Positions 3,791 through 63,577 of a stretch of DNA of 64,000 bases are shown piece after piece. Below the pieces are notes generated by a model, which saw only the letters and a program-made list of their open reading frames with translations, made no database searches and was not told where the DNA came from. A program made the position numbers and the translations under genes. The number at the start of each line of letters is the position of its first letter. Positions within the stretch are counted from its first letter, which is position 1. Origin of the DNA: Chloroflexota bacterium (GTDB lineage Bacteria > Chloroflexota > Anaerolineae > Anaerolineales > Villigracilaceae); NCBI GenBank assembly GCA_016191845.1, contig JACPVF010000012.1, positions 62,001-126,000 on the forward strand, in the 5' to 3' direction.

Positions 3791-3800
3791 TTTTTCCTAA

Positions 3801-3837
3801 AACGCTGATTCACGGTCACGGACCGTGAATCAGCGTT
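3801..3837 (-). terminator. Perfect 17-bp hairpin after the DUF1801-like gene
   Basis: Arms 3801-3817 and 3821-3837 are exact inverse complements with a 3-base loop. On the minus strand a short T-rich run follows, so it probably terminates the transcript of the gene at 3883-4347 and insulates the acetyltransferase gene. Confidence 0.75.
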
Positions 3838-3882
3838 GTGTAGACGATATTCCAGATTTGTGTTCCAGAATATGGATTACCT

Positions 3883-4347: not shown

Positions 4348-4390
4348 AAAATTCTCCTTATCTAATCGTGGCTCGTTTTGACACTTGCAC

Positions 4391-4425
4391 TGAAGTAAAT
4401 TTAATTATATAATAAAGATACTTCA
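4391..4425. promoter_or_regulatory. Candidate MarR operator in divergent promoter region
   Basis: The inverted repeat TGAAGTA (4391-4397) / TACTTCA (4419-4425) lies in the AT-rich gap between the divergent DUF1801-like and MarR genes. MarR proteins commonly repress their own divergent promoter through such sites; the assignment is inference. Confidence 0.4.
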
Positions 4426-4455
4426 AAATAAAGATAATGTCAAGGGCATATTTCT

Positions 4456-4923
4456 ATGACGAAATCCACAAAGACAGATTTGAAGAAACGGGCGTTGATG
4501 GCCGTAAGAGAGTATGGAATCCATTTGACGCTGTTTCGAAATGCCATGAGTGAATGGGCGGGACTCAATGTAACTGATATGGAATGTCTCAGGTTATTGT
4601 TCCTCAAAGGTGTCGCCACACCTTCTGAACTTGCCAGGCAGACAGGGCTTACTTCTGGCGCGACAACCGCCATGCTCGATCGCCTTGAAAAAGCTGGCTT
4701 GATTGAGCGCCGACCCAATCCTGAGGATCGCCGCGGGACCCTGATCGTCCCAGCGGAATCGAGTGCCGAAAGGGCCGCGTCATGGTTCGAATCGGCGAGA
4801 AAGGCGCAGGACGAGTTGGTCTCAAGTTATTCGGAAAGTGAGTTGGAGATCATTGCTGATGCCTTCGAAAGATTTACAAAACTATGGGATCAGGAACGTG
4901 AGAAGATACAAGAAGGTCGATAA
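4456..4923 (+). CDS. MarR-family transcriptional regulator
   Basis: A 155-residue winged-helix repressor, the only plus-strand gene in the 3.3-10.1 kb block. The DNA-binding core runs from about residue 36 to 105: NVTDMECLRLLFLKG, the helix-turn-helix TPSELARQTGLTSGATTAML, and the wing with RLEKAGLIERRPNPEDRRGT, the most conserved MarR motif. N- and C-terminal helices would form the dimer interface. Ligand unknown. It probably regulates itself and the divergent DUF1801-like gene. Confidence 0.9.
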   Translation: MTKSTKTDLKKRALMAVREYGIHLTLFRNAMSEWAGLNVTDMECLRLLFLKGVATPSELARQTGLTSGATTAMLDRLEKAGLIERRPNPEDRRGTLIVPAESSAERAASWFESARKAQDELVSSYSESELEIIADAFERFTKLWDQEREKIQEGR

Positions 4924-5067
4924 CGCATTTGGATTCCCCATTAACTCATCCGAGGCATGCAAAACGTGTGCGTACTAGCGGAACTCGTCGATGAATGGGC
5001 TGAGACATGTGATTGTAGCGGAATCAGCCCAAAGTCAATGACAAAGCCTAGATTATAGGAATTTCAT

Positions 5068-5589
5068 TTATGAAGCCGCTTGGGTTTGTTCGCCATCGCA
5101 GGCCATGTTTCGACGGATCCGCCCTGCCAGTTCGAGGCATTCGTTTTCAGGGATATCGAGGAACCCATTCTCAATCCCTAATGCCGCTAATTGTTGTTGC
5201 TTGAAGGGAGTGCCATGGGGCAGAGGGGCAATATGCCAATGAACATGACGATTACCTTGCTGGCTTCCCAACGAAAGAATATAGACACGCTCCGCTTCTA
5301 CAGTTCGTCTTACGGCTTCCGCAACTTGATATATGCCTCGTTGCAGGGCAAGATACTCCTCCATGGTGAAATCGCCCGTTACCTGCTCCTTATGCTCAAT
5401 GGGGGCAACCAGCACGTATCCATAGAGTGGGGGGTATTTGTTGAGAAAAGCTATAAACAAGTCATCACAATAAATAATGTAATTCCCATCGGTTCGCCCA
5501 TTAACCATTTCACAAATAAAGCATGGATGGTTTTGGATTCGATCTATATAGGCGTCTAGATCGAACGATTTACGATTATTCATAAGCAT
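5068..5589 (-). CDS. HIT-family nucleotide hydrolase/transferase
   Basis: A 173-residue histidine-triad protein. The catalytic triad motif HVHWHIAPLP is at residues 115-124 (His115, His117, His119; the last is expected to form the nucleotidyl-His intermediate). An N-terminal CFIC pair (Cys23, Cys26) may bind zinc as in many HIT proteins. The GYVLVAPIEHKEQ strand at 57-69 is the usual HIT core. It likely hydrolyses AMP-linked or dinucleoside polyphosphate substrates. The start is either ATG 5589 or ATG 5583; an AAGGTGG ribosome site lies just upstream of both. Confidence 0.9.
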   Translation of the reverse strand: MLMNNRKSFDLDAYIDRIQNHPCFICEMVNGRTDGNYIIYCDDLFIAFLNKYPPLYGYVLVAPIEHKEQVTGDFTMEEYLALQRGIYQVAEAVRRTVEAERVYILSLGSQQGNRHVHWHIAPLPHGTPFKQQQLAALGIENGFLDIPENECLELAGRIRRNMACDGEQTQAAS

Positions 5590-5651
5590 GTTCCACCTTT
5601 TTCAAGATAAGTTGTTGTATTTTTCATCAGGCAACCTGCGATTTGCGTAGA

Positions 5652-6536
5652 TTACATTCGGAATTTGGGCTCATACTGTACTTCAGGAAGCGCCACCACG
5701 CTTCGCCAGGCTTGTTCGAGATCATCGACAGACTTTGTCAGCTCCTGTGCTGTATTGCCTGGATGTGCCAGAATATGGTTAATCTGCCGAATGTACCCCA
5801 ATGGCAAAAGAGGAAATCCGGCGACCACTTCCATTACCCTTTTGTCTCGCAGAAAATATCTCTCATTCAACGCAAATAATGCCTGAGTCATATTAGAAGC
5901 CATGCGAGTCAGGCATCCTACAGTGTTGTAAACATCCGCTCGACTGGCGAAACCACGGGCGTGGAGGAGGGTAAACTCCGTTGCCCACAGTGAATCAGCG
6001 ATGATCTTTTGTTTCAACTTCGGAGGATATACCGCAACACTGCGTTTGAATTCAGCGATGAGCGACTCAGGATCGTAGAGCGGAATACAGATTTGGGTTT
6101 CGGCCAGATAGATCACGCTTTGGAAGCCGTAGGTGGGTTGCTGATCATAGTCATGATGTGAGATGCCCTGTTGAGCCTCGCTGATCGTTTGTTGAAGTTG
6201 TTCCACGTTGCGATATATGAAATCGACCTTGCCTTGTGGCGTGTGAATCCAGGCTCCCCCATTGACCCAGGCGCCCCACCCGTAAAACCCTGTGACAGTT
6301 GCTGTTCCATCCGCAGAAGTCTCTTCTGCGATGTGTCTGATATTGTCAATTGAGAATGGATTGGACGGGAAATAATATAGCCCAATATCAATATCAGATG
6401 CCTCGTGCTGAGTGCCGCTCGCGTAGGAACCACCCAGGACTATGGCAGACACGCCAGAGATCTTGCTGAGTCGGTCGACGAGATGTTCAAGCAATGAGCG
6501 CTTCTGTTTTGGGAGATTTGGTATGTTGTTGATCAT
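5652..6536 (-). CDS. Nucleotidyltransferase-domain protein
   Basis: A 294-residue protein with a polymerase-beta-like nucleotidyltransferase core near the N-terminus: GGSYASGTQHEASDIDIGLYY (GS-x10-DxD pattern, about residues 35-55), which supplies the metal-binding aspartates. The rest is mainly helical and may bind substrate. Related stand-alone proteins include aminoglycoside adenylyltransferase-like and DUF4037-type enzymes; the substrate is not identifiable. Single gene, weak GGA ribosome site before ATG 6536. Confidence 0.8.
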   Translation of the reverse strand: MINNIPNLPKQKRSLLEHLVDRLSKISGVSAIVLGGSYASGTQHEASDIDIGLYYFPSNPFSIDNIRHIAEETSADGTATVTGFYGWGAWVNGGAWIHTPQGKVDFIYRNVEQLQQTISEAQQGISHHDYDQQPTYGFQSVIYLAETQICIPLYDPESLIAEFKRSVAVYPPKLKQKIIADSLWATEFTLLHARGFASRADVYNTVGCLTRMASNMTQALFALNERYFLRDKRVMEVVAGFPLLPLGYIRQINHILAHPGNTAQELTKSVDDLEQAWRSVVALPEVQYEPKFRM

Positions 6537-6778
6537 TTTGAGATTCCAAATTTTTGTCTAGTGGGAGGATGTTACCTAATAAGCCACGTAAGTCTGTATA
6601 TTCCCTCTCAAATCCCTGCGTTAGAATAGGACGGCAGGGCTGGCCAGAAAGGGTTATGCCGTCAAAGCTGATTGGATTGTGCGCAAATCAGGTAAGTAAA
6701 CGCAATGAAAGGAACTTTTTTAGGTTATTGTCTCAGGCATTCTCAGATTCCTTAAATCTTGCTTGGACGGATCCAGTC
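6537..6778. other. Intergenic, no gene recognised
   Basis: A 242-base AT-rich gap between the nucleotidyltransferase and cupin genes. No convincing reading frame, strong hairpin or repeat was seen. Confidence 0.5.
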
Positions 6779-7123
6779 TTATTCCTGCCTGACTATATCG
6801 ACCGAAATCTCCACTGCCAGGACCGACCCTCGATTCTCGAGCCAGTGCGTGGTATTCCTGTCTTCGGGCCAACCCACTCCCGGCCCATAGTCTGTAGTGA
6901 CTCCGTCTCGGTGGTCAGTGATGATTCCTTCCAGTATATAGACAATGCCTGGTCTGTCTTTATGGTCATGAAGCGGGCCGAAGACGCCTCCAGGCTCGAT
7001 GGTCACCATACGCATTCGAAGTTGACGTCCTGCCATGCCCTCAATCTCAGGGCCAAGATCAACTGTTGCTAGTAACTGCACTGTAACACCCTTCGTTTCA
7101 GGAACTGTCTGTTCGTTGCTCAT
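6779..7123 (-). CDS. Small cupin-domain protein
   Basis: A 114-residue single cupin barrel. The two cupin motifs are recognisable: PGGVFGPLHDHKDRPGIVYILEG (motif 1, with two metal-ligand histidines and a downstream Glu) and GPGVGWPEDRNTTHWLENRG (motif 2, with its His). Such proteins bind a metal and act as isomerases, dioxygenases or sensors; the function here is unknown. The ATG at 7123 is preceded by GGAGAA at good spacing and is preferred over an upstream TTG. Confidence 0.82.
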   Translation of the reverse strand: MSNEQTVPETKGVTVQLLATVDLGPEIEGMAGRQLRMRMVTIEPGGVFGPLHDHKDRPGIVYILEGIITDHRDGVTTDYGPGVGWPEDRNTTHWLENRGSVLAVEISVDIVRQE

Positions 7124-7178
7124 CAAATTCTCCTTCCTTTACTTCTTAAGGTTCAATAGCTTCTTCTGGGAAAATGAC

Positions 7179-7538
7179 TCACTGCCGTAGAATCTTATCC
7201 ATTGTTTTTCCTTTGGCAAGTTCATCAATCAACTTGTCCAAATAGCGTATGTTTTGCATCAGCGGATCCTCGATTTCCTCCACGCGAACACCACACACTA
7301 CACCTTTGATAAACAAACGATTTGGATTCATGGCTGGTGCTTGCGCAAAAAAGGTTTCAAAATCATTTCCCTGCTCGATTTGTTGACGTAATCCCACCTG
7401 GCTATAGCCGGTCAGCCAGCAGATGGTTCGGTCAACTTCTTCTTTTGTGCGATTTTTGCGTTCTGCTTTTTGAACGTACAGCGGGTATACGCTTGAAAAC
7501 TTCATTGCGAAAATTCGGTTATTAGACTTGTTGTTCAT
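7179..7538 (-). CDS. DUF2200-like conserved protein
   Basis: A 119-residue protein starting [20 protein letters not shown]. Recognisable family stretches are [58 protein letters not shown] and [19 protein letters not shown], which cover essentially the whole length as in other DUF2200 members. Function unknown. The frame extends further upstream, but ATG 7538 has an exact GGAG ribosome site (TGAGGAGTC) and matches the family start. Confidence 0.8.
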
Positions 7539-7987
7539 TGCTAAAGACTCCTCATAACTTTTTGTTTCACAAGTAAACGTTTCTATTTGGTATTGTGGAC
7601 TCACCCGGAACGCGAGACTCGCTTGCAAAACGAAGATGTCATCACCAGGTCAATAAAATTATTGCACAGACTTTTTGTTTCGGCAATTACCTAAAATATG
7701 GTTTGCCGACGGATTGGAACACCCATATGCAATTCATGTATTTGAAAAAAATAGGAGGCGATTATCGTGGATTGCCGCAATCAATGTCATAATTAAAATT
7801 ATAAGCGCGCGACGTCTGGATTTATTATCCATTATTCTTCCGCCAACATCCTGCATCGATACAAATACGGATGGGATCGCCTAGAACAATCGGTGTTTTT
7901 TATCTTTGTTGACAGACATACCGATTTAAACACACAATAGACGACCCCATTTGATCGTCTATTGTTATCGTCAGAGCTCAAATGGAC
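7539..7987. other. AT-rich intergenic stretch
   Basis: About 450 bases without a convincing gene. It holds the ribosome site and probable promoter of the DUF2200-like gene on its left and a hairpin (7935-7964) after the DHFR-like gene on its right. Short frames exist on both strands (for example 7675-7884, 69 residues) but show no domain, no ribosome site and no sensible composition. A decayed gene is possible. Confidence 0.5.
7935..7964 (-). terminator. Hairpin after the DHFR-like gene
   Basis: Exact 10-base arms CAATAGACGA (7935-7944) and TCGTCTATTG (7955-7964), 24 bases past the stop codon of the minus-strand gene. The downstream T-run is weak, so this is only a probable terminator. Confidence 0.5.
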
Positions 7988-50004: not shown

Positions 50005-51483
50005 ATGCGCAAGTCAGTGTTGTACGTTTTGAGCCTGCTGGTGGTTGCCAGCATGCTTTTAGTCGCCTGCGGTACCACTCCCGCGGCCCCTGCTGCTACG
50101 GAAGCCCCTGCGGCCACCGATGCCCCCGCTGTGACTGAGGCTCCCGCTGCCACCGATGCCCCCGCAGCCGAACTCGAAGGCACCCTGAACGTGTGGTCCT
50201 TCACTAATGAGATTCGTACCATGGCCATCGCCTTCCAGGGCAAGCACCCCAAGGTGAAGGTCGTGTATACCATGATCCCTATGACCAACGGTGAATACCA
50301 GACCAAGGTCAAGGCCGCCTCTGGCACCGCTGATTCCCCCGATGTGGTGGCTCTCGAAGCTGCCTTCGTCAAGGAATGGGTCGAATCCGATCTGCTGATG
50401 GACCTGAACGACCTGGTCCCGTTGACCGAACAGCTCAAGACCTACCCGGCCGTCGTGCAGGTGGGTACCTATGATGGTGTGACCAAGGCCTTCTCCTATC
50501 AGGCCACCCCGGGCGCTTTCTTCTATCGCCGCTCCATCGCGAAGGAATGCCTCGGCACCGACGATCCCCAACAGGTCCAGGCCATGGTTGCGGACATGGA
50601 CAAGTTCGTCGAGACCGCTGCCAAGATCAAGGCCTGCGGCACGGGCGATTACTACACCGTCGGCACTGGCGCTGAACTGTTCACCCCGTACCTCGCCAAT
50701 CGCGCCCAGCCGTGGGTCGTGGATGGCAAGCTCGTCATCGACCCGAAGATCGTGGAATATGTCCACTTCGCCAAGATGATGCGTGACAACGGCTACGAGT
50801 CGGGCGCTACGCAGTGGACCGAAGGTTGGTTCGCGGGCATGAACGACACCCTGAAGGATGCCAACGGCACCCCGAAGAAGGTCTTCAGCTACTTCCTGCC
50901 CACCTGGGGTCTGCCCTACGTGCTGAGCCCCAACTCCACGCCCAAAGATGGCGGCACGAGCACCGCTGGTGACTGGGCCATGGTCAACGGCCCGATGTCC
51001 TATCAGTGGGGCGGTACCTGGGTTGGCGTCCTCGAAGGCAGCCCGAACTCTGAACTCGCGAAGGAATTCGTTAAGTTCGTGGCGCTCGATGAAGAGAACC
51101 TGACCAACTGGGCGACTGGCGTGTACACCAACGAGTACCTCAAGGCCATCGACCCGACCACGCCTGATGACCAGGCGCAGGCCGCAGGCGACTTCGTCTC
51201 CAGCCAACTCGTGGTCGAGAAGATCACCAGCAGCTTCGACAATTCGACTTTGTCTGAATTCCTCGGTGGCGAGAACTCTTATGGCGCGTTTGCTGCCGCC
51301 GCTCCGAGCGTCGACGGCTCCTTCCTCACCGGCTCTGATGATGCCATTCAACGCGCGTTGAACGATCCGCTGGCTGCTTACCTGAGCGGCACCATGACCG
51401 AAGCTGAAATGTGGGCTGCCTGGTTGGATGCGGTTCGCAATGAATTCCCCGACCTGATCATCCCCGAACCCCCTGTGAAGTAA
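50005..51483 (+). CDS. Family 1-type sugar-binding lipoprotein (MalE-like)
   Basis: A 492-residue lipoprotein. Signal MRKSVLYVLSLLVVASMLLVACG with lipobox LVAC (Cys22), an Ala/Pro/Thr linker to about residue 55, then a MalE-type fold (LNVWSFTNEIRTMAIAFQGK, DSPDVVALEAAFVKEWVESD, KAFSYQATPGAFFYRRSIAK, VFSYFLPTWGLPYV, LEGSPNSELAKEFVKFVA). It delivers an oligosaccharide to the two permeases downstream. The exact sugar is not known; the GH3 enzyme at the end of the cluster suggests a beta-glucoside or xyloside. Confidence 0.94.
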   Translation: MRKSVLYVLSLLVVASMLLVACGTTPAAPAATEAPAATDAPAVTEAPAATDAPAAELEGTLNVWSFTNEIRTMAIAFQGKHPKVKVVYTMIPMTNGEYQTKVKAASGTADSPDVVALEAAFVKEWVESDLLMDLNDLVPLTEQLKTYPAVVQVGTYDGVTKAFSYQATPGAFFYRRSIAKECLGTDDPQQVQAMVADMDKFVETAAKIKACGTGDYYTVGTGAELFTPYLANRAQPWVVDGKLVIDPKIVEYVHFAKMMRDNGYESGATQWTEGWFAGMNDTLKDANGTPKKVFSYFLPTWGLPYVLSPNSTPKDGGTSTAGDWAMVNGPMSYQWGGTWVGVLEGSPNSELAKEFVKFVALDEENLTNWATGVYTNEYLKAIDPTTPDDQAQAAGDFVSSQLVVEKITSSFDNSTLSEFLGGENSYGAFAAAAPSVDGSFLTGSDDAIQRALNDPLAAYLSGTMTEAEMWAAWLDAVRNEFPDLIIPEPPVK

Positions 51484-51493
51484 TCTCCTGAAT

Positions 51494-51526
51494 GATTGGG
51501 ACGGCGCATCGCGCGCCGTCCCAATC
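51494..51526 (+). promoter_or_regulatory. Stem-loop between binding-protein and permease genes (MalEFG-like module)
   Basis: Perfect 14-base arms (51494-51507 and 51513-51526) around a 5-base loop, 11 bases past the stop, with no T-run. Likely an mRNA-stabilising processing site. Confidence 0.7.
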
Positions 51527-51573
51527 CCATGGGGTTCCGTCCTCGATTTCATTTCCACCTTATCGGAGGCACC

Positions 51574-52530
51574 ATGAATTTTGCTAAATTCAAGAAGGCA
51601 TCCACAGGGTATTTCTTCCTTGCGCCGTTCATCATTGGATTCCTGGTCTTTGGCCTGTACCCGGTCGTCAATACTCTCACGCTGAGTTTCACGGATGCCA
51701 CGTTGATGTCGGGCAAGAGTCACTTTATTGGGCTCGGGAACTTCCAGCGTCTGTTCGCTGATGAAGTGTTTATGCGGGCTGTGGGGAATACCTGGCTGCT
51801 CTGGATCCTGAACTTCCTGCCCCAGATCGGCATTGCATTGCTATTATCTGTGATGTTCACGAACGTCCGCCTCAAGATCAAGGCGGTGGGGGTGTGGCGG
51901 GCCTTGTTCTTCCTGCCCAACTTGTTGATGCCTGCTGCCGTGGCGGCCTTATTCAATGCATTATTTGCTTATTACGGTCCGGTCAATCAACTGATGGTGA
52001 GGGCAGGATTCCTGAGCGAGGCCATGCGTTTTTTGGAGTCGGTGGGAGTGACGCGCGGATTGGTGATTTTCATCCAATGGTGGACCTGGTTCGGTCAGAC
52101 CATCATCATCGTCATGGCGGGCATGACCTCGATCCCGATCCAGTTATATGAAGCCGCCATGGTGGACGGAGCCAACGGCTGGCAAATGTTCCGCCGGATT
52201 ACTCTTCCACTCCTGCGGCCCATCCTGATCTACGTCTTCGTTACATCGTTGGTGGGCGGCATGCAGATGTTCGACATCCCCTTCCTGCTGACGGACGGGC
52301 GTGGCTCGCCGCAAAGTTCCATCCAGACCAACAACATCCTGATGTACATGAAATTCGCCAGCAGCAAGGGGCACATCGGTGCGGCCTCCTCAGTGGGTGT
52401 ACTGATCTTCATTATGACCAGTCTGTGTGCCCTGGGCATCTTCTACTTCCTGCGTGACCGCGATGGAGTGGAAAAGAAGCCCGCGAAGAAATCGACCTTG
52501 GTCAAGAATATGGAAAAGGCGTTGCTGTAA
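51574..52530 (+). CDS. Sugar ABC permease (MalF-like)
   Basis: A 318-residue permease with six helices. GYFFLAPFIIGFLVFGLYPV is helix 1, and the EAA loop is EAAMVDGANGWQMFRRITLPLLRP near residue 190. ATG 51574 follows GGAGG and the frame before it has no helix. Pairs with the next gene, whose ATG overlaps the stop (TAATG). No ATPase gene is present in the operon, so a shared MsmX/UgpC-type ATPase encoded elsewhere is expected. Confidence 0.94.
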   Translation: MNFAKFKKASTGYFFLAPFIIGFLVFGLYPVVNTLTLSFTDATLMSGKSHFIGLGNFQRLFADEVFMRAVGNTWLLWILNFLPQIGIALLLSVMFTNVRLKIKAVGVWRALFFLPNLLMPAAVAALFNALFAYYGPVNQLMVRAGFLSEAMRFLESVGVTRGLVIFIQWWTWFGQTIIIVMAGMTSIPIQLYEAAMVDGANGWQMFRRITLPLLRPILIYVFVTSLVGGMQMFDIPFLLTDGRGSPQSSIQTNNILMYMKFASSKGHIGAASSVGVLIFIMTSLCALGIFYFLRDRDGVEKKPAKKSTLVKNMEKALL

Positions 52531-53372
52531 TGACATCTTATAAACTAAGCACCTACGTCCTGCGCGTTTTTTCGTACCTTCTGTTGTTCTTCCTGCTGAT
52601 CCTGATCATCGTCCCGATCTGGATCCTGATCGTGAACTCCACCCGTTCCACCACCGAGATCCAGCAAGGCATCAGTTTGCTTCCCAGTTCGCACCTGATC
52701 GAGAACTATCGTTTGCTGCTCAGCAAGGGATTGAACCTGCCGCGTGGATTTGGCAACAGTATTTTCCTGGCGGTCGCCTCGACGGTGGTTACAGTATATT
52801 TCTCGCTGCTGACCGCCTACGGTCTGGTGGTCTATGATTTTCCCGGCAGGAAGTTGTTCTCCAACTTCGTCATCGTGCTGGTGATGATCCCCATGCAGTT
52901 GTCCATCGTTGGTTTCTATCGCTTCATGTCCATGATGGGACTGACAGACAACTATGCGGCCTTGATCCTGCCACTGGTGGCCAATGCAGGCGCGGTCTTC
53001 TTTGGGAAGCAATACCTTGAGTCGATGCTGATTCAGGACCTGATCGATGCGGCCCGCATAGACGGCGCCAGTGAATTGGGCATCTTCCATATGATCATCA
53101 TGCCGTTGGCGGTGCCAGGTGCGGCCACCATGGGCATCTTCGCTTTCGTGGCTTCCTGGAATAACTTCTTCAACGCCTTCATCATAATCACCTCCATCGA
53201 GAAATATACGCTCCCGATGCTGGTGCAGACCCTGCGTGGTGATGTGTATCGCACGGAATATGGCGCAATCTACCTTGGCCTGGCGGCCACCATCGTGCCA
53301 ATTATCATCATCTACGCCATTTTCTCTCGTTATATTGTGAGTGGCATTGCCATGGGGGCCGTCAAGGAATAA
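52530..53372 (+). CDS. Sugar ABC permease (MalG-like)
   Basis: A 280-residue permease with six helices. YLLLFFLLILIIVPIWILIV is helix 1; the EAA loop is DAARIDGASELGIFHMIIMPLAVPG, a near-perfect match to the binding-protein-dependent permease consensus. It completes the MalF/MalG pair. Its start overlaps the previous stop by one base. Confidence 0.95.
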   Translation: MTSYKLSTYVLRVFSYLLLFFLLILIIVPIWILIVNSTRSTTEIQQGISLLPSSHLIENYRLLLSKGLNLPRGFGNSIFLAVASTVVTVYFSLLTAYGLVVYDFPGRKLFSNFVIVLVMIPMQLSIVGFYRFMSMMGLTDNYAALILPLVANAGAVFFGKQYLESMLIQDLIDAARIDGASELGIFHMIIMPLAVPGAATMGIFAFVASWNNFFNAFIIITSIEKYTLPMLVQTLRGDVYRTEYGAIYLGLAATIVPIIIIYAIFSRYIVSGIAMGAVKE

Positions 53373-53435
53373 CACCAGACGGCCATCACCTCATATCCAT
53401 CATCGATTGTCCGTTCTTACAGGACGACTTGCTTT

Positions 53436-53455
53436 ATGTTGCTTGAAGGCAACAT
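53436..53455 (+). promoter_or_regulatory. Small hairpin before the GH3 gene
   Basis: ATGTTGC/GCAACAT arms of seven bases with a six-base loop, 32 bases before the GH3 start in the 114-base gap. It is too weak for a terminator and may set the ratio of permease to enzyme expression. Confidence 0.35.
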
Positions 53456-53486
53456 GAATAGCTGAAATCATTGAACTGAGGATTGC

Positions 53487-55805
53487 ATGATATCGACTCA
53501 AAAAACGTTGGGCACCTTGCTTGCGCAGATGACCCTGGACGAGAAACTGGCCCAGATCGGTTCGTATTGGATGTATGAATTGCAGACGGGTGGCGAATTG
53601 GATTTGGACAAGGTGCGAACGAGGCTTGGTCAGGGCATCGGGCAGATCACGCGTGTGGCGGGTGCGTCCACGTTCGACCCTGTCTCGGCGGCGAAGGTGG
53701 GGAATCAGATCCAGAAATTTTTGCTGGAACAGACCCGCTTGAAGATACCTGCCATCTTGCATGAGGAGAGCTGCTCAGGCGCGATGATTCTGGGGGGCAG
53801 CAGCTATCCACAGATGATCGGCCTGGCCAGCACCTTCCAGCCTGAATTGGCTGAGGCCATGACGCTAGCCATCCGCAAGCAGTTACTGGCTATTGGCGCG
53901 CGACAGGCGCTGGCTCCCGTGCTGGACGTCTCACGGGATCCACGCTGGGGCCGCACCGAAGAAACCTTTGGCGAGGACCCGACCTTGGTCAGCCACTTTG
54001 GCATGGCCTACGTCCGCGGCATGCAGGGCGCGGACCTGGCCCAGGGCGTGATGGCCACGGGCAAACATTTCATTGGTCACAGTCTCTCACAGGGCGGACA
54101 AAATTGCGCACCTGTCCATATCGGTAAACGCGAGTTATACGACACCTTCCTGGCTCCGTTCCAGGCCGCTATCCGCGATGCGGGGTTGGCGACCATGATG
54201 AACTCCTATCCTGAACTGGATGGGGAGGTGGTGGCTGTTTCCCGCCGCATCCTGACCGACCTTCTGCGTGGTGAGCTTGGCTTCGACGGCCTGGTTGTTT
54301 CGGATTACGATGCCGTGGTCATGATCCACAGTTATCACAATGCAGCTCCCGATCTCGCCACGGCGGGACGGCTGGCCTTACAGGCGGGCATCGATGTGGA
54401 ATTGCCCACCACGGTTTGTTACGGCGACGCGCTCAAAGCTGCGCTCGACGCGGGCGATCTGGACATGGAAACCGTCGATACGGCAGTTTCCCGCCATCTG
54501 CAAAAGAAATTCGAGTTGGGTCTGTTCGAGAATCCCTATGTGGACGAAGGCCGTGTGATCGAAGTCTTCGAGACTTCAGAACAGCGCGCCCTGGCACGAG
54601 AGATCGCTCGTAAGAGTATGGTCCTGCTCAAGAACGACGGACTGCTCCCGCTCAAAAAGGATCTTCGTACCCTGGCGGTCATCGGCCCCAACGCGGACAA
54701 CAACCGCAGCCTGCTCGGTGATTACTCCTATGCGGCTACCAAGGAACTGGTCAGTTTCCAGGCCCCGCCTGATTCTTCGTTCATCGATATCGATGAACAG
54801 GATTTGGCGGAATATGACGTGAAGATTGTCAGCCCGTTGAAGGGCATCCAGGTGGCGGTGACCCCTGATACCAAAGTGCTATATGCCAAAGGCTGCGACA
54901 ACCTCTCCGCTGACACGAGCGGATTCGATGAAGCCGTCCGTGTGGCAAACCAAGCCGACGCGGTGATCCTTGTGCTGGGTGACCGCTCAGGCCTAACCCC
55001 GAACTGTACCTCAGGCGAAACGCGGGACAGTGCCGACCTCCGTTTGCCTGGTGTGCAGGAAGAACTGGCCAAGGCCGTCCTTGCGACGGGCAAACCCGTG
55101 GTGGCGGTGCTGGTCAACGGGCGTCCGTATGCCCTCCCATGGCTGGACGAGCGTGCGAACGCCATCCTCGAAGCCTGGCTGCCAGGCGAGGAGGGCGGTG
55201 CGGCAGTAGCTGATATCCTGTTCGGCGATGTCAACCCGGGCGGAAAGCTTCCTGTGACCTTCCCGCGCAGCGTCGGCCAATTGCCGATCTTCTACAATCA
55301 CAAGCCCTCAGGCATGAAGTCGAACTGGTATATCGATTACGTGTCCGAAAAGGCCACGCCGCTGTATCCCTTCGGGCATGGGTTGAGTTACACCAGCTTC
55401 GAGTACAGCGACCTGTCGATTGAGCGGAATCAGGCTACGGCGGGGGAGGGGGTGGATATCGCGCTGACGGTCACCAACGCGGGCGATGTCTGTGGCGATG
55501 AGGTGGTTCAGCTCTACATCCGCGACGAGTATGCCAGCGCCCCGCGCCCGATGAAGGAATTGAAAGGGTATGCGCGTCTGACGCTTGAGCCGCGCCAATC
55601 CAAAACTGTGACCTTCCACCTGCCCGTCGACCAATTGGCCTTTTACGACGCGGACCTCAATCTCGTGCTCGAACCTGGACGCATCTTTGTCATGCTCGGC
55701 AGTTCGAGCGACGATATCCGCCTGCGCGGCGAGTTCGAGATCGTCGGTGCGGCCAAGATGCTGATCAAGGAGCGCGTGTTCGTCTGCCCTGTGACGATAT
55801 CGTAG
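53487..55805 (+). CDS. GH3 beta-glucosidase/xylosidase
   Basis: A 772-residue cytoplasmic GH3 enzyme without signal peptide. APVLDVSRDPRWGRTEETFGEDP, GKHFIGHSLSQGGQN (KH motif) and the nucleophile Asp in GLVVSDYDAVVMIHSYH form the first domain; LKNDGLLPLKKDLRTLAVIG opens the second, and an FN3-like domain (IALTVTNAGDVCGDEVVQLYI) closes the chain. The DPRWGRTEETFGEDP form is common in bacterial beta-glucosidases and beta-xylosidases with broad specificity. It is distinct from the GH3 enzyme at 35108-37408. Confidence 0.93.
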   Translation: MISTQKTLGTLLAQMTLDEKLAQIGSYWMYELQTGGELDLDKVRTRLGQGIGQITRVAGASTFDPVSAAKVGNQIQKFLLEQTRLKIPAILHEESCSGAMILGGSSYPQMIGLASTFQPELAEAMTLAIRKQLLAIGARQALAPVLDVSRDPRWGRTEETFGEDPTLVSHFGMAYVRGMQGADLAQGVMATGKHFIGHSLSQGGQNCAPVHIGKRELYDTFLAPFQAAIRDAGLATMMNSYPELDGEVVAVSRRILTDLLRGELGFDGLVVSDYDAVVMIHSYHNAAPDLATAGRLALQAGIDVELPTTVCYGDALKAALDAGDLDMETVDTAVSRHLQKKFELGLFENPYVDEGRVIEVFETSEQRALAREIARKSMVLLKNDGLLPLKKDLRTLAVIGPNADNNRSLLGDYSYAATKELVSFQAPPDSSFIDIDEQDLAEYDVKIVSPLKGIQVAVTPDTKVLYAKGCDNLSADTSGFDEAVRVANQADAVILVLGDRSGLTPNCTSGETRDSADLRLPGVQEELAKAVLATGKPVVAVLVNGRPYALPWLDERANAILEAWLPGEEGGAAVADILFGDVNPGGKLPVTFPRSVGQLPIFYNHKPSGMKSNWYIDYVSEKATPLYPFGHGLSYTSFEYSDLSIERNQATAGEGVDIALTVTNAGDVCGDEVVQLYIRDEYASAPRPMKELKGYARLTLEPRQSKTVTFHLPVDQLAFYDADLNLVLEPGRIFVMLGSSSDDIRLRGEFEIVGAAKMLIKERVFVCPVTIS

Positions 55806-56015: not shown

Positions 56016-57227
56016 ATGTTCACTGGCGACCAGGAAAAGGTACGAAAAGTCAACAGATCCCTCATTCTCAATACCTTGCGGCTTCACGCGCCTGTTTCGC
56101 GTGCCCAAGTGGCAAATATTACAGGTTTGACCCGCGGTACCGTATCGAATATTGTCAATTCGTTGATAGAAGAAGGGCTGGTTTTCGAGGACCAGCTGCA
56201 GGACTCGAAGGTTGGGCGACCGTCCATTTTGCTGAGACTGCGACCTGACGGCGGGGCAGTCATCGGGGTGGAAATCGGGGTGGATTTCATCTCTGTACTT
56301 CTGACGAATTTTGTCGCCGAGCCCTTGTGGGAAACCCGCGTCAAAACCTCCCCGTCCCAATCCCAAACCGACATCATCCACCAGGCGGAGACCTACATCG
56401 AGCAGGCGCTCGATATCGCGAAGGCGCAAACCTTACGGCCTCTGGGAATCGGCGTGGGGCTGCCGGGCCTGGTCAATGTGCGACAGGGAAACCTGATCAT
56501 GGCCCCGAACCTGCATTGGACGAACGTGCCCCTGCGCCTGATGTGGAATCAACGTTTCCATCTTCCTATTTATATCGACAATGAAGCGAATTTATCCACG
56601 CTGGGGGAATACTACTTTGGAGTGGCCCGTAATACCGACAATTTCATCTATCTTTCCTCTGGCATCGGCCTGGGCGGCGGCGTAATGATCGATGGAAGAT
56701 TGTTTCGCGGCGCGAATGGGTATGGGGGGGAGATCGGGCATATCCAGCGCGACTCGCAAGGTGAGCAATGCGCCTGCGGGAGGATCGGCTGTTGGGAGAC
56801 CCTGGTCGGCCCGCGCGCCGTGCTCCGCCGCGTGAGGAATGAACTGAACGTCAAGCAAGACACGCAACTGTTAGAGGCCTGTTCGGGCGACCTGGACAAT
56901 CTCACCTTTGAATTGATCGTTCAGTTTGCCTTGGACGGGAATGCCATCTGCCGCCAGGCGATGGAAGATGTCGCCGTAAACCTGGGCGTGGGAATTGCGG
57001 ACCTGGTCAATATTTTCAACCCGCAAATGATCGTCATCGGTGGCGCTTTCATTGCGGGAAAAGATATTCTGTACTCGATCATCGAAAAGACGATCCTTTC
57101 CAATGCGCTGCAGCCGTCGGTCGAGAATTTACAGATCAAGTTCTCCGAACGGACTGCCGAAGCTTGTGTGCTGGGCGCGGTGGCGGTTGTGTTGGATGAC
57201 ATTTTGCGCGAACTGGCAATCAATTAA
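56016..57227 (+). CDS. ROK-family repressor (XylR-like)
   Basis: A 403-residue regulator: N-terminal winged helix (residues 10-75) with VRKVNRSLILNTLRLHAPVSRAQVANITGLTRGTVSNIV, then a ROK/glucokinase-like domain (GAVIGVEIGVDFISVLLTNF, LGIGVGLPGLV, GGGVMIDGRLFRGANGYGGEIGHI) including the zinc motif CACGRIGCWE. It would sense xylose or another sugar. First gene of the operon with the xylose-type ABC transporter and xylose isomerase; its operator overlaps the promoter. Confidence 0.94.
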   Translation: MFTGDQEKVRKVNRSLILNTLRLHAPVSRAQVANITGLTRGTVSNIVNSLIEEGLVFEDQLQDSKVGRPSILLRLRPDGGAVIGVEIGVDFISVLLTNFVAEPLWETRVKTSPSQSQTDIIHQAETYIEQALDIAKAQTLRPLGIGVGLPGLVNVRQGNLIMAPNLHWTNVPLRLMWNQRFHLPIYIDNEANLSTLGEYYFGVARNTDNFIYLSSGIGLGGGVMIDGRLFRGANGYGGEIGHIQRDSQGEQCACGRIGCWETLVGPRAVLRRVRNELNVKQDTQLLEACSGDLDNLTFELIVQFALDGNAICRQAMEDVAVNLGVGIADLVNIFNPQMIVIGGAFIAGKDILYSIIEKTILSNALQPSVENLQIKFSERTAEACVLGAVAVVLDDILRELAIN

Positions 57228-57336: not shown

Positions 57337-59493
57337 ATGAAATCGAAACGTGTTTTGATGGCCATCTTCTCTTTGATGATCATCGCTTCCATGGCGCTCA
57401 CTGCCTGCAGTGGCGCCGCCCAGTCCTCTGGCGGAAAGGTCAAGATCGGTCTGTCCTTCTCCGACTTTGCGACCGAGCGCTGGAAAAACGAAGAAGTTCT
57501 GATGCGCAAGCTTCTCGAAGAGAAGGGCTACGAGGTCATTTCCGCGGAAGCCAATCATGATGTCAAGCTGCAGAACGACCAGATCGACAACATGGTCAGC
57601 CAGGGTGTCAAAGGCCTGATCGTGGTCGCTGAAGACGGCGACGCTGTGGTCACCTCCGTGGACAAGGCTGCGGATGCGGGCGTGAAGGTCATCGCTTATG
57701 ACCGCCTGATCAAGACCTCCAAGATCGCTGCCTATCTGTCCTTCGACAACGTCGAGGTAGGCCGCCAACAGGCCCTTGGTGTCATGAAAGCTATTGATGC
57801 AGATAACTGGGATGTCAACGCGAACGGTCCCGCGCGCGTTGTTCAGCTTGCCGGCTCGCCCACTGACAACAATGCTACCTTATTCACCAAGGGCCAGACT
57901 GAAATCTTACAACCATACGTCGACTCTGGCAAGATTGAAATCGTTGCCCAGCAAGGCATCGACAACTGGGATGCTGCCAACGCCCTCAAGGTGATGGAAA
58001 ACATCCTGACCGCCCAGAACAACGACATCGATGCCGTGGTCGCTTCCAATGACGGCACCGCTCTCGGTGCGCTCCAGGCGATGAAGGCTCAAGGCCTGGC
58101 TGGCAAAGTACCGATCTCTGGCCAGGATGCCACTGCCGACGGCAGCAACAGCATCGTCAAGGGTGAACTGACTGTCTCGATCCTCAAGGACATTCGCAAC
58201 CTGTCCCCGCTAGCCGTGGACGTGATGGACAAACTCATCAAGGGTCAGCCCGTGGATGGCATGAAGAACTTCACGCTGGCCGAACTGACCGTGGATAACA
58301 CCAAGAAGGGTGAGGTCCCGTGCGTGTTCCTCCAGGTCCAGCAGGTCAACAAAGACAATGTGTATGACCTCGTTGTGAAGAGTGGCTTCCAGCCCTACGA
58401 CGATGTCTATCGCGACATCCCTGAAGACCAGCGCCCTCCAAAACCCGGTGAAGCTGCCGCTCCTGCGGCCCCGGCTGAAAAAGTCAAGATCGGTCTGTCC
58501 TTCTCTGACTTTGCGACCGAGCGCTGGAAAAACGAAGAAGTTCTGATGCGCAAGCTTCTCGAGGGGATGGGTTACGAGGTCATTTCCGCGGAAGCCAACC
58601 ATGACGTCAAGCTGCAGAACGACCAGATCGACAACATGGTCACTCAAGGCGTCAAGGGCTTGATCGTTATTGCCGAAGATGGCGATGCCGTGGTCACTTC
58701 TGTGGACAAGGCCGCGGATGCGGGCGTGAAGGTCATCGCCTACGACCGCCTGATCAAGACCTCCAAGATCGCTGCCTATCTGTCCTTCGACAACGTCGAG
58801 GTAGGCCGCCAACAGGCTTTGGGCGTCATGAAGGCTTTGGGTGTCGATGATGGCAAGTGGACCAAAGACAATCCCGCCAAGGTCGTCATGCTCGGCGGTT
58901 CTCCCACCGACAACAACGCCACCCTGTTCCGCAAGGGACAGATGGAAATCGTCCAGCCGTACGTTGATCAGGGCATTGTGAAGATCGTTGCCGACCAGTG
59001 GGTCGACAATTGGGATGCCGCCAACGCCCTCAAGATCATGGAAAACATCCTGACCGCTCAGGGCAATAAGATCGACGCCGTGGTCGCTTCCAATGACGGC
59101 ACCGCCCTCGGTGCGCTCCAGGCGATGAAGGCTCAGGGTCTGGCTGGCAGTGTGCCGATCTCTGGCCAGGATGCCACTGCCGACGGCAGCAACAGCATCG
59201 TCAAGGGTGAACTGACTGTCTCGATCCTCAAGGACATCCGCAACCTCTCCCCGCTGGCAGTAGATGTTATGGACAAGCTCATCAAGGGTGAGGCCGTGGA
59301 TGGCATGAAGAATTTCACCCTCGCTGAACTCACGGTTGACGACACCAAGCAAGGTGAAGTGCCCTGTGTCTTCCTGAAGGTCGAGCAGGTCAACAAGGAT
59401 AACGTGTACGACCTGGTCGTGAAAAGCGGCTTCCAGAGCTACGACGATGTCTATCGCGATATCCCCGAAGGCCAGCGCCCGCCCAAACCCTAA
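57337..59493 (+). CDS. Tandem-duplicated xylose-type binding lipoprotein (double XylF)
   Basis: A 718-residue lipoprotein, about twice the normal XylF length. Signal peptide with lipobox ALTAC (Cys24), then two complete type I periplasmic-binding domains at residues 35-370 and 383-718, each beginning VKIGLSFSDFATERWKNEEV and ending RDIPE-x-QRPPKP, joined by the 12-residue linker GEAAAPAAPAEK. The two copies are 336 residues each, align without gaps and differ at about 40 positions (about 88% identity by eye). Ligand-contact regions (FSDFATERW, SNDGTALGA, SGQDATADG) are kept in both; the densest differences lie near residues 153-175. It feeds XylGH. Confidence 0.93.
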   Translation: MKSKRVLMAIFSLMIIASMALTACSGAAQSSGGKVKIGLSFSDFATERWKNEEVLMRKLLEEKGYEVISAEANHDVKLQNDQIDNMVSQGVKGLIVVAEDGDAVVTSVDKAADAGVKVIAYDRLIKTSKIAAYLSFDNVEVGRQQALGVMKAIDADNWDVNANGPARVVQLAGSPTDNNATLFTKGQTEILQPYVDSGKIEIVAQQGIDNWDAANALKVMENILTAQNNDIDAVVASNDGTALGALQAMKAQGLAGKVPISGQDATADGSNSIVKGELTVSILKDIRNLSPLAVDVMDKLIKGQPVDGMKNFTLAELTVDNTKKGEVPCVFLQVQQVNKDNVYDLVVKSGFQPYDDVYRDIPEDQRPPKPGEAAAPAAPAEKVKIGLSFSDFATERWKNEEVLMRKLLEGMGYEVISAEANHDVKLQNDQIDNMVTQGVKGLIVIAEDGDAVVTSVDKAADAGVKVIAYDRLIKTSKIAAYLSFDNVEVGRQQALGVMKALGVDDGKWTKDNPAKVVMLGGSPTDNNATLFRKGQMEIVQPYVDQGIVKIVADQWVDNWDAANALKIMENILTAQGNKIDAVVASNDGTALGALQAMKAQGLAGSVPISGQDATADGSNSIVKGELTVSILKDIRNLSPLAVDVMDKLIKGEAVDGMKNFTLAELTVDDTKQGEVPCVFLKVEQVNKDNVYDLVVKSGFQSYDDVYRDIPEGQRPPKP
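57439..58446 (+). repeat. Direct repeat, copy 1 of the XylF domain
   Basis: A 1008-base unit coding for residues 35-370, repeated at 58483-59490 with an exact offset of 1044 bases and no indel. DNA similarity is high, with long identical runs, which points to a fairly recent duplication or ongoing conversion. Confidence 0.92.
58483..59490 (+). repeat. Direct repeat, copy 2 of the XylF domain
   Basis: Second 1008-base unit coding for residues 383-718. It is separated from the first by 36 bases coding for an Ala/Pro linker. Changes concentrate in a segment near 58832-58900 (protein ALGVDDGKWTKDNPAKVVMLGG in place of copy 1). Confidence 0.92.
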
Positions 59494-59514: not shown

Positions 59515-59543
59515 CCCCGGTCTCCAATACTTGGAGACCGGGG
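59515..59543 (+). promoter_or_regulatory. Stem-loop between XylF-like and XylG genes
   Basis: Perfect 12-base arms CCCCGGTCTCCA (59515-59526) and TGGAGACCGGGG (59532-59543), 21 bases after the stop, with no T-run. The third such element at a binding-protein gene end in this window. Confidence 0.72.
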
Positions 59544-59637
59544 TGCTCAATGAGCAGAACATTTTCGCACAAAACTTGTATAAAAGGAAATTGCCGACAT
59601 TTCAAGCCCTGCTTTGGATGAAGCAAAGGAGATAATA

Positions 59638-61191
59638 GTGGAAAACGATATTATCCTCGAATTCAAGAACGTGACGAAGAGATTTCCCGGGGTGGTGGCA
59701 TTGAATGATGTTTCCTTCAAGATTCGTCGCGGCGAAATCCACGGCATTTGCGGGGAAAATGGCGCAGGTAAATCCACGTTGATGAAGATCCTTTCGGGTG
59801 TTTATCCCAAAAACACCTATGAAGGCAGCGTGCTCTATAATGGTGAGGAGTTAATGTTGGGGGAACAGGCTATTCAAGAGGCGGGGAGCAAAGGCATTGC
59901 AATCGTCTACCAGGAGCTTACCCTCGTCCCCACCATGTCAGTAGGTGAGAACGTTTACCTGGGGCGAGAGCCGTTGGAGCGTGGCGCAATCGATTGGAAT
60001 AAGTTATATGCAGACACGCGGGGGATCCTTGAAAAGTATCAGCTGGATGTCCCGCCGCAGGCCATGGTCAAAAGCCTCGGGGTCGGGAAGATGCAAATGG
60101 TCGAGATCGCCAAGGCTCTCTCGGAGGATGCAAAGGTTCTGATCCTGGACGAACCAACCAGCGCCCTCAGTGAAGCTGAGATCGACAAGTTGATGGACAT
60201 CCTGAAGTCTCTCAAGAATAATGGCATTACCTGCATTTACATCACCCATAAACTGGAGGAACTCTTCCGTATCACCGATAAGATTACGGTTATGCGGGAC
60301 GGCAAGGAGATCGTCACCAAGCCGACCGTGGAGTTCACCCAGGAGAGTCTGGTCAGTTACATGGTGGGGCGGGAAATGAAGGAGCGCTTCCCCAAGGCGA
60401 AACGCTCACCAGGTGAAGTTATTTTCAAGGTTGAAAACCTGAAGGCGCTTGACCCCAATGATGCAAGCCGCGGCATCTTGAATGGTGTCAGCTTCGAGGT
60501 CCGCAAGGGTGAGATCTTGGGGATCGCCGGTCTGATGGGCGCCGGGCGAACCGAGCTGGTGATGACCCTGTTCGGTGAATATGCCAGGATCGTGGACGGA
60601 AAAATTACGTTGAATGGCAAGGATATAAGACCCACCAGTGCCCGTCAGGCGATCAACGCAGGCCTGAGCCTGGTGCCCGAAGATCGCAAGGGTATGGGTT
60701 TGATCTTGATCCAATCCATTTTGAAGAATATTTCGCTGCCCAATCTCGATCAATTCTCGGGATTCTTCCGCATCGATGCCGACGCAGAATTGAAGGCCAG
60801 CCTGATCCAGTCGAAAAGCCTGACGATCAAGGCGCCCAGCCTCGAGTCGACGGTCGAGACCCTTTCGGGCGGGAACCAGCAGAAAGTGGTCATATCAAAG
60901 TGGCTGCTCTCGAAGCCGTCCGTGTTGATCATGGATGATCCTACCCGCGGCATCGATGTCGGGGCCAAGTACGAGATTTACAAACTAATGAATGAACTGG
61001 CGGAGAACGGCGTTGCCATCATTATGATCTCCAGCGACCTCGAGGAGGTGCTGGGCATGAGTGACCGGGTCATGGTGATGTGCCGTGGACATTCGACCGA
61101 AACCCTGCCCGTCGCCGAGGCAACTGTGGAGCGCGTGATGACGCTCGCCACAGGTGTTTCATCTGATGAAAAATTGATGAAGGCAAATTGA
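59638..61191 (+). CDS. xylG: Xylose-type ABC transporter ATPase
   Basis: A 517-residue protein with two fused nucleotide-binding domains, as in XylG/RbsA/MglA. Domain 1: GICGENGAGKSTLMKILSG and LILDEPTSALSEAE, Walker B. Domain 2 has the degenerate P-loop IAGLMGAGRTELVMTLFG typical of the second half, signature LSGGNQQKVVISKWLL and Walker B MDDPTRGIDVGAK, where Asp replaces the usual catalytic Glu. The start is GTG 59638, preceded by AAAGGAG; an upstream ATG in frame lacks a ribosome site. Confidence 0.95.
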   Translation: MENDIILEFKNVTKRFPGVVALNDVSFKIRRGEIHGICGENGAGKSTLMKILSGVYPKNTYEGSVLYNGEELMLGEQAIQEAGSKGIAIVYQELTLVPTMSVGENVYLGREPLERGAIDWNKLYADTRGILEKYQLDVPPQAMVKSLGVGKMQMVEIAKALSEDAKVLILDEPTSALSEAEIDKLMDILKSLKNNGITCIYITHKLEELFRITDKITVMRDGKEIVTKPTVEFTQESLVSYMVGREMKERFPKAKRSPGEVIFKVENLKALDPNDASRGILNGVSFEVRKGEILGIAGLMGAGRTELVMTLFGEYARIVDGKITLNGKDIRPTSARQAINAGLSLVPEDRKGMGLILIQSILKNISLPNLDQFSGFFRIDADAELKASLIQSKSLTIKAPSLESTVETLSGGNQQKVVISKWLLSKPSVLIMDDPTRGIDVGAKYEIYKLMNELAENGVAIIMISSDLEEVLGMSDRVMVMCRGHSTETLPVAEATVERVMTLATGVSSDEKLMKAN

Positions 61192-61200
61192 GGTAATTCC

Positions 61201-62403
61201 ATGGATACCACCAACCAAACACTCAAAAAAGAAGGCTTTCTCTCTGAACTGTATGGAGTTTTGCGACTCAATATACAGACGTATACGATCCTGTTGGCGT
61301 TGATAGGCATCTGGGGAATCTTCTTTTTCACCACGGGGGGGACCTATCTGGCGTCACAGAATGTGTCCAACCTTTTCCGCCAGATGTCGGTGACGGCATT
61401 TCTGGCGGCGGGCATGGTGCTGGTGATCGTGATCGGCGGCATCGACCTGTCTGTGGGCAAACTGGCGGGTTTCGTTTCTGTCGTGGCGGCGTATTTCCAG
61501 GCCCACATCTGGTTCGAATATCTGCCCGACCAACCGCTGTTGGCTGCCGCGCTGACCGTGGTTGTCAGCCTCCTGGTCGGCGCGTTATTTGGTGCGCTCC
61601 AGGGATATATCATTGCGTACCTGCGGGTGCCGTCGTTCATCGTCACCCTGGGCGGTCAATGGCTGCTCAACGGGTTGATTCTGCTGGTCACGGCTGGAAA
61701 GACCATCCCGGCGAACCAGCCCTGGTTTTCGGATATCGCCCAGGGATATGTCCCAGCTACATGGGGATGGGTTCTGGGGCTCGTGGCCATCGCCTTCCTG
61801 TTCTGGAGTATGTTCAACAGCCGTCAGAGCAAGCGGAAACATGGTTTTGCGCTGCGAAACATCTACATCGACCTGTTGGCCACTGGTTTTGCTGCGTTGA
61901 TCATCCTGATCTATGTCTATAACGTCAATAGCTACAAGGGAATTCAAAACCCGGTCTTGCTGTTGGCTGCGACCGCCATGATCATGATCTACCTCGCGAA
62001 CAACACCCGTTTCGGACGGTATGCGTACGCGATCGGTGGGAATCGCGAGGCGGCCCGTCTCTCGGGGATCAACATCCCCTGGATGACGTTCAGCATCTTC
62101 GTCCTGATGGGATTCCTCTCTGGTGTGGGTGGCATCGTACTCGCCTCTTACGTGGGCTATGGGACGATCGCAGCAGGAGCGGGGTACGAATTGGATGCCA
62201 TTGCCAGTTGTATTCTCGGCGGCACATCCACCCTCGGCGGCATTGGTACGATCCAGGGTGCGATGATCGGCGCCCTGATCATTGCCAGTTTGTCCACGGG
62301 CTTGCAAATGATGAACGTGGCCCCGGCCTGGCAATATGTTTTGAAAGCAATTGTGTTGGTCCTGGCAGTATTGGCCGACGTATACTTCAAGAAAAAAGGT
62401 TAA
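61201..62403 (+). CDS. xylH: Xylose-type ABC transporter permease
   Basis: A 400-residue permease of the XylH/RbsC class with about ten helices. Conserved elements: [59 protein letters not shown] and [21 protein letters not shown]. It is nine bases downstream of xylG and works with it and the tandem binding protein to import a pentose. Confidence 0.95.
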
Positions 62404-62407
62404 TGAA

Positions 62408-63577
62408 ATGAGCAAAACTTACGAACCCAAACCTGAGCACAAATTCACTTTCGGTCTGTGGACCGTGGGCAACAAGGGACGGGATCCGTTTGGTGATCCC
62501 GTCCGTGAGACGAAGACTCCTGCCGAGTTGGTCTATCTGCTGGGCGAGGTCGGTGCGTATGGCGTCAACTTCCATGACAACGACCTGATCCCCATCGACG
62601 CCACGCCTGCCGAGGCGGAAGCCATCAAGAAGGATTTCCGCAAGGCGCTGGACGATACGGGTCTGGTCGTGCCAATGGCGACCACCAACCTGTTCGGTGA
62701 TCCCATCTTCAAGGATGGCGCTTTCACCAGCAACGATCCGAAGGTCCGCGCGTACGCGCTGCAAAAGACCATGAAGGCCATCGACCTGGGGGTGGAATTC
62801 GGCGCGAAGACCTACGTCTTCTGGGGCGGACGTGAAGGCACCGAAACGGATTCATCCAAGAGCGCCGTCGACGCCATTAAACGCAATCGTGAGGCCATGA
62901 ACTTCCTGTGCGAGTATGCGCTCGACAACAAATACGATCTGAAGTTCGCGCTCGAGGCCAAGCCCAACGAACCGCGTGGCGACATCTACAACCCGACCAC
63001 GGGTCACATGCTGGCTTTCATTGCCGCCCTCGACCATCCCGAGATGGTCGGTGTCAATCCCGAGGTGGCGCACGAGCACATGGCGGGCATCAACTTCATG
63101 CACGGCGTGGCCCAGGCTTGGGAAGCAGGCAAGCTCTTCCACATTGACCTGAACGACCAGTATCCTGGCCGCTATGATCAGGATCTGCGCTTCGGTTCAC
63201 GCGATCTCAAGGCTGCTTTCTACCTGGTCAAGTTCCTGGAAGATGTAAAATACGATGGTTCACGCCACTTCGACGCGCACGCTTACCGCACCGAGGACTT
63301 CGAGGGCGTGAAGGATTTCGCCCGCGGCTGCATGCGCACCTACCTGATCCTCAAGGAAAAGGCTGCCCAGTTCAACGCGGATGCGGAGATTCAATCCATT
63401 CTGGCCGAGATCAACGCGGACGATGGCTCGATGAGTGGTTTCTTCGGCAAGTACTCCGCCGAGAAGGCCAAAGCCCTCAAGGCCCAGCCCTTCGACCGCG
63501 CAGTGATCAGTGCCCGTGGCCTGAAGTATGAACGCCTCGATCAGTTGACCGTCGACCTGCTGTTGGGTACCCGCTAG
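62408..63577 (+). CDS. xylA: Xylose isomerase
   Basis: A 389-residue isomerase converting D-xylose to D-xylulose. The short form, similar in length to Thermus and Streptomyces enzymes. Active-site elements: [10 protein letters not shown] (catalytic His and Asp), [23 protein letters not shown] (metal Glu and Lys), [13 protein letters not shown] (metal Glu and His), HIDLNDQ and [14 protein letters not shown] 62408 lies four bases after the xylH stop; AAAGGT at the end of xylH serves as ribosome site. The operon lets the cell take up and enter xylose into the pentose pathway; no xylulokinase is seen before the window ends. Confidence 0.97.

Follow-up and report, generated by a model that had tools for sequence, protein, structure and literature searches.

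In the window (the whole 64,000-nucleotide stretch of Chloroflexota DNA analyzed here), a set of forward-strand genes occurs in the order ROK-family regulator (56016–57227, assigned by family search), binding protein (57337–59493), hairpin (59515–59543), CUT2 sugar-importer ATPase (59614–61191), CUT2 permease (61201–62403), and xylose isomerase (62402–63577). The ATPase is XylG/GguA-like with two nucleotide-binding domains, and the permease is GguB-like (Pfam and NCBIfam models). Each of the two falls short of the curated cut-off of the model that matches it best, while the isomerase, searched as the ORF at 62351–63574, scores above the cut-off of TIGR02631. The operon encodes a single translocator, made up of one ATPase and one permease. 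Farther upstream (50005–55805), ORFs read by eye suggest a binding lipoprotein of the CUT1 type, a pair of permeases, and an enzyme similar to beta-glucosidases.

The binding-protein gene is an open ORF encoding a tandem XylF-like substrate-binding lipoprotein of 718 amino acids with two Pfam Peripla_BP_4 stretches. Lipid anchoring is predicted at Cys24 of a lipobox read by eye (LTAC, residues 21–24, 57397–57408), and this cysteine is invariant across 11 aligned tandem proteins. Alignment of the two halves and Pfam matches delimit binding domain A (residues 35–370, 57439–58446) and binding domain B (residues 383–718, 58483–59490), joined by a 12-residue Ala/Pro/Glu-rich linker (residues 371–382, 58447–58482; GEAAAPAAPAEK). 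The domains, of 336 residues each, align without a gap and are identical at 296 of 336 positions (88.1%), leaving 40 amino acid differences. The original prediction of one lipobox, two gap-free 336-residue XylF-like domains, and a 12-residue Ala/Pro linker was borne out by the ORF and the alignment, its estimate by eye of about 40 differences proved exact (40/336), and its description of a membrane-tethered tandem sugar binder is supported as a prediction. Scored separately against Peripla_BP_4 (PF13407, gathering score 35.1), domains A and B reached 196.4 and 190.7 bits; the window's genome holds 11 matches to this model (E ≤ 1e-10) in 10 ORFs, and only the 57337–59493 frame holds two. AlphaFold2 (11 tandem proteins) returned two mostly confident domains with a low-confidence linker (pLDDT <50 at residues 373–380) and a pTM of 0.51, and the relative placement of the two domains is hence taken as undefined in the model.

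At the DNA level, the two copies differ at 155 of 1,008 bases (84.6% identical), with 82 silent and 40 amino acid-changing codon differences (dN 0.082, dS 0.59). Purifying selection acts between the copies (dN/dS ~0.14). Two pairs of 300-nt repeats, 91% and 80% identical, share one constant spacing of 1,044 nt, which excludes chance as the source of the repeat.

The full tandem protein passed the NCBIfam xylF model (TIGR02634, 589.9 against a cut-off of 389.55), but only because the scores of its two domains sum: singly, they scored 306.6 and 295.8, both below the cut-off. The label "XylF" therefore calls for caution, and we call the protein XylF-like. Among up to five candidates scored per genome, none of the 396 genomes of the window's class exceeded the TIGR02634 cut-off, while an E. 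coli control did. Against the ChvE model, both domains together scored 432.5, below both its cut-off (460) and the XylF score. Foldseek ranked E. coli XylF (3m9w, 42% identity) first, and 3m9w was also the best sequence match. Eight residues of E. coli XylF are reported to hydrogen-bond xylose (R16, D90, R91, D135, N137, N196, D222, and K242; PMC8753852), and these are identical in domains A and B (8/8) and in all 81 of 81 homologous domains. As the domains fall singly below the xylF cut-off, the assignment of xylose draws on context and on these contact residues, which suggest xylose, or a sugar much like it, as the ligand that is imported for the neighboring isomerase.

A scan of genome contigs recovered 77 homologous loci, 12 of which carry two XylF-like domains in one frame (L064–L073, L077, and L082, the last truncated by the end of its contig and counted on what is left of its first domain; the L064 sequence includes a run of N, and pairwise figures for its first domain against the window protein were left out). 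Isolates and a complete genome are represented (Leptolinea tardivitalis, Levilinea saccharolytica, and, as the complete genome, Leptolinea sp. HRD-7), and the linkers of the 12 tandem proteins span 10–21 residues, in frame. A 685-amino acid open frame (L108/L049) was rejected as a further tandem, with a Pfam binding domain in its second half only. ATPase and permease genes lie downstream of the binding protein in 13 of 13 tandem loci examined. Of the 61 genomes made up by the window's and those near it, 27 gave a match of some kind. The six others with close homologs (G001, G041, G033, G035, G011, and G051; best matches 73%–91% identical) all have the single-domain form, including G001, which belongs to the same genus as the window's genome, while more distant two-match frames occur in G043 (752 amino acids) and G052 (663 amino acids). 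A fixed, conserved tandem is ruled out by these six single-domain genomes, and a duplication private to this species is ruled out by the other tandem loci and by the domain tree described below. The choice that the original prediction set up, between a conserved tandem and an artefact, fails, since G001 is single, tandems occur in other relatives, and switches between the two states are repeated.

Across the window's class, matches occurred in 56 of 396 genomes. In at least 13 of the 56 (the window's included), a single frame held more than one match, a lower bound counted by eye from up to five candidates scored per genome. Among the matches listed, no two shared a frame in Spirochaetota, the phylum of L121 (76/296 genomes matched, up to seven candidates per genome), or in Acidobacteriota, the phylum of L125 (19/199 genomes matched, all listed candidates considered). 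The difference between at least 13/56 in the class and 0/95 in the other phyla was significant (Fisher's exact test, P = 9e-7, relatedness ignored). Spirochaetota genomes also contain about 20 pairs of adjacent, unfused xylF-model genes, ~1.2–1.5 kb apart (e.g., G701:C62, G642:C1, and G711:C13). Larger arrays were found among distant, XylF/ChvE-like homologs: L151 (G206:C21, frame 3340–7695) encodes 1,452 residues with four domains and L152 (G400:C244, minus strand) encodes 1,094 residues with three, each near ATPase and permease genes. The ATPase frames beside L151 and L152 are only 286 and 257 amino acids long, approximately the length of one nucleotide-binding domain.

The history of domain number was examined with a tree of 81 distinct domains (after dropping 21 duplicates and fragments) and a translocator tree of concatenated ATPase and permease sequences from 57 operons (13 tandem; short search, SH-aLRT support only). 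The latter covers 57 of 70 loci, and the 13 dropped, none of them scored tandem, lacked both full-length partners. In the domain tree, the two halves of the same protein pair as sisters for both Leptolinea, Levilinea, L064, L065, L066, and L070. By comparison, domain B of the window falls together with L069_b and the two L064 domains (95/98), as L072_b does with L073_b (90/93), so that the duplication appears older than gene divergence in these cases. The single or tandem state is labile and changes often: it requires 12 changes on the domain tree (starred branches force 7 of them) and 10 on the translocator tree (9 forced), although single-domain metagenome loci may hide collapsed tandems, and the number of switches may therefore be overstated. 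On the translocator tree, the tandem label is only marginally clustered (shuffled mean 12.0 changes, 40/500 shuffles as low). Moreover, the binding protein nearest to the window's, at L069:6001-12280, is accompanied by an ATPase and permease that are 69% and 61% identical to those of the window and group with L082 and L131; with binding protein and translocator in different clades, binding-protein genes may move between operons.

Such marginal clustering fits what would be expected if the second domain were dispensable. It could then be a by-product of recombination, kept or lost without consequence, as the nearly random distribution of states on the translocator tree and the single-domain form in same-genus G001 would suggest. 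We nonetheless regard neutral turnover of this kind as unlikely, given the purifying selection between the copies, the in-frame linkers of 10–21 residues in 12 proteins, the existence of proteins with three and four intact domains, and a tandem shared by the window gene and L069 that appears older than their divergence.

Gene conversion accounts in part for the near-identity of domains A and B. When both domains of the window protein were compared with both of L069, 53 informative bases linked domains within a genome, 34 linked matching domains between genomes, and 5 linked them crosswise (53, 33, and 5 in a wider alignment). These sites were clustered, with 20 switches against 40.6 expected and none of 20,000 shuffles as low. 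For example, domain positions 1–120 contain 29 within-genome and 3 between-domain sites, against 2 and 21 at positions 121–168. The Leptolinea pair is almost wholly homogenized (71 within, 2 matching, 0 crosswise), and L072/L073 are intermediate (38, 33, and 14).

The differences between domains A and B are concentrated in a tract at residues 153–209 of domain A (57793–57963) and 501–557 of domain B (58837–59007), where 171 bases hold 24 of the 40 amino acid and 64 of the 155 base differences (dS 1.55), compared with 30 base differences in 354 bases and 61 in 483 in the flanks. The original prediction had located the most divergent segment near residues 153–175; differences are indeed concentrated there, but the stretch is longer. 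Over positions 165–215, domain B matches members of its own clade no better than it matches distant homologs (best 0.79), while the flanks of its tract are closest to domain A (0.87–0.92). Site comparison identified four linked positions in the tract, A172, T184, Q205, and G207 in domain A and G520, R532, D553, and W555 in domain B, the latter set as in E. coli XylF (G130, R142, D163, and W165). Over the 81 domains, the R and W combination occurs in 66 and T and G in 15, with Q (14 domains) or K (1 domain) at the D position. All 15 T/G domains belong to the window's 16-domain clade, of which domain B of the window is the sole R/W member. Domain B accordingly either kept the general XylF set (R/W/G/D) or regained it.

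Concentration of 24 of 40 differences in one tract with four linked substitutions could indicate that domains A and B bind different sugars, in the manner of the GlnPQ importer, as the original prediction had considered. This is improbable, and different ligands are not favored, given that the eight reported xylose-bonding residues are the same in A, in B, and in all 81 domains, and that the operon encodes a single translocator. A functional or affinity difference toward the same sugar is possible; the four linked residues lie outside the eight reported contacts, and hence we offer an affinity difference only as a proposal. The idea that R142 (R532 in domain B) touches the sugar, based on the contacts of ribose-binding protein, was set aside, as this residue is absent from the contacts listed in PMC8753852; it is treated here as a linked residue.

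The hairpin between the binding-protein and ATPase genes has a 13-bp perfect stem without a T run, and the 136-nt region holding it folds at z = −4.17. In Clostridia, stem-loops 3′ of binding-protein genes are reported to raise binding-protein transcripts over those of the translocator (PMC9045158). Of 57 operons, 18 have a perfect stem of at least 9 bp in the 130 nt that follow the binding-protein gene; among 57 control windows placed within the ATPase gene, none has one. Such stems were equally common in tandem (4/13) and single (14/44) operons (Fisher's exact test, P = 1), so that neither an association with the tandem state nor a tie between domain number and expression control was seen.

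Taken together, we consider it probable that the protein is a tethered two-site binding protein, in which both XylF-type domains on one lipid anchor feed a single CUT2 xylose-type importer. The anchor would display two complete domains joined by a short, flexible linker. Each of them would load a xylose-type sugar, and the two would alternate at the one translocator (59614–61191 and 61201–62403), where docking of both is presumed. Unequal crossing-over is a plausible route by which second domains would be added and removed, while gene conversion would keep domains A and B alike. The tract at 153–209/501–557 would have escaped conversion or been imported, leaving A with the T/G/A/Q set of its clade and B with the general R/W/G/D set. 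The outcome would be a doubling of binding sites per anchored molecule, possibly with one and the same sugar bound at two affinities or released at two rates.

A division of labor, in which one domain works with the permease while the other acts in sensing or at the surface, has some precedent in the activation of receptors by xylose-binding proteins (XylFII-LytS, cited in PMC9601137), but it is very improbable here, where none of the five typed operon proteins is a sensor kinase and both domains are full-length and nearly identical. Although the window's genome is spread over 18 contigs, an assembly duplication, which the original prediction had named as a source of error, or a two-strain chimera is scarcely credible, since the copies differ at 15% of bases and one-frame tandems with similar linkers occur in independent genomes, including the complete genome of Leptolinea sp. 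HRD-7 and those of L. tardivitalis and L. saccharolytica.

The interpretation of a tethered two-site protein can be set beside a second multidomain binding protein in the same genome, outside the window (G000:C4:265950-268268, equivalent to L155:9951-12269). This 772-residue predicted lipoprotein combines a ChvE-type (CUT2) and a GlcS-like (CUT1) domain. The GlcS model matched with E = 6e-39 (same frame read from L004), the scores of both domains are under curated cut-offs, and Pfam detected the first domain only. The ORFs that follow resemble two CUT1-type permeases and then a CUT2-type ATPase and permease. This gene order recurs in G001, G008, and G025, with all four partner genes typed in G001 and three in G008 (where the ATPase is 265 amino acids long). 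A counterpart in G035 (L159:8321-10495, G035:C26) has two ChvE-type domains, and no CUT1 permease was found among its adjoining ORFs of at least 200 amino acids. In these five operons, with the fused protein or its counterpart, the binding domains thus match the translocators present. One fused chain may serve two importer classes; if so, a single anchored molecule would serve two translocators.

The fused CUT2-CUT1 protein strengthens a modular reading, which we extend tentatively to the window's Chloroflexota group. Binding domains would be carried like a string of beads, one to four per lipid anchor, with recombination changing their number quickly, gene conversion homogenizing them, and selected tracts escaping to give two affinities; the CUT2-CUT1 fusion, with both importer classes encoded in its operon, would add one anchored molecule that serves two translocators. 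This broader picture is conceivable rather than likely.

The tandem sugar-binding protein, with its predicted tether, is real, and it appears to be an undescribed rigging of a common sugar importer. Among literature titles and the openings of abstracts, in a collection that covers few subscription papers and so gives weak evidence of absence, we found no description of a tandem XylF or a tandem sugar-binding lipoprotein. What a transporter gains from additional binding sites appears to have been studied chiefly in importers whose binding domains are fused to the permease, such as GlnPQ and OpuA. Since the number of binding domains varies from one to four among related operons whose partner genes are alike in kind, these operons offer a natural and testable comparison of site number. 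Chloroflexota cells are not known to have an outer membrane, and tandem binders suggest how such cells could keep a larger number of capture sites at their membrane. Short-read assemblies may collapse near-identical tandem domains, which would keep the form hidden.

Compared with known systems, the protein shares with E. coli XylF (3m9w, 3m9x, and 3ma0) the fold, the eight reported xylose contacts, and the same kind of partner genes, and the operon contains the CUT2 ATPase, permease, and xylose catabolism of a XylF-type operon. Unlike XylF, which has one domain, it carries two on one predicted lipid anchor, each scoring under the curated TIGR02634 cut-off. The importer also resembles ChvE-GguAB, in that its permease is best matched by GguB and its ATPase by XylG/GguA models, but the binding protein scores higher as XylF and remains below the ChvE cut-off even with both domains. 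The binding folds of the window protein and GlnPQ presumably belong to different binding-protein clusters. In GlnPQ of Lactococcus lactis, the binding domains, labelled F-IV, likewise occur as two per chain on a short linker (14 residues there and 12 here), and binding by the tandem domains is reported to be about as tight as by the single ones (PMC8025302). The analogy drawn with GlnPQ in the original prediction consequently fits in linker length but not in attachment, as the GlnPQ domains are joined to the transmembrane domain, whereas the tandem protein is encoded by an ORF separate from that of the permease (61201–62403). Moreover, the two domains of GlnPQ prefer different amino acids (PMC8025302), whereas those of the window protein are nearly identical.
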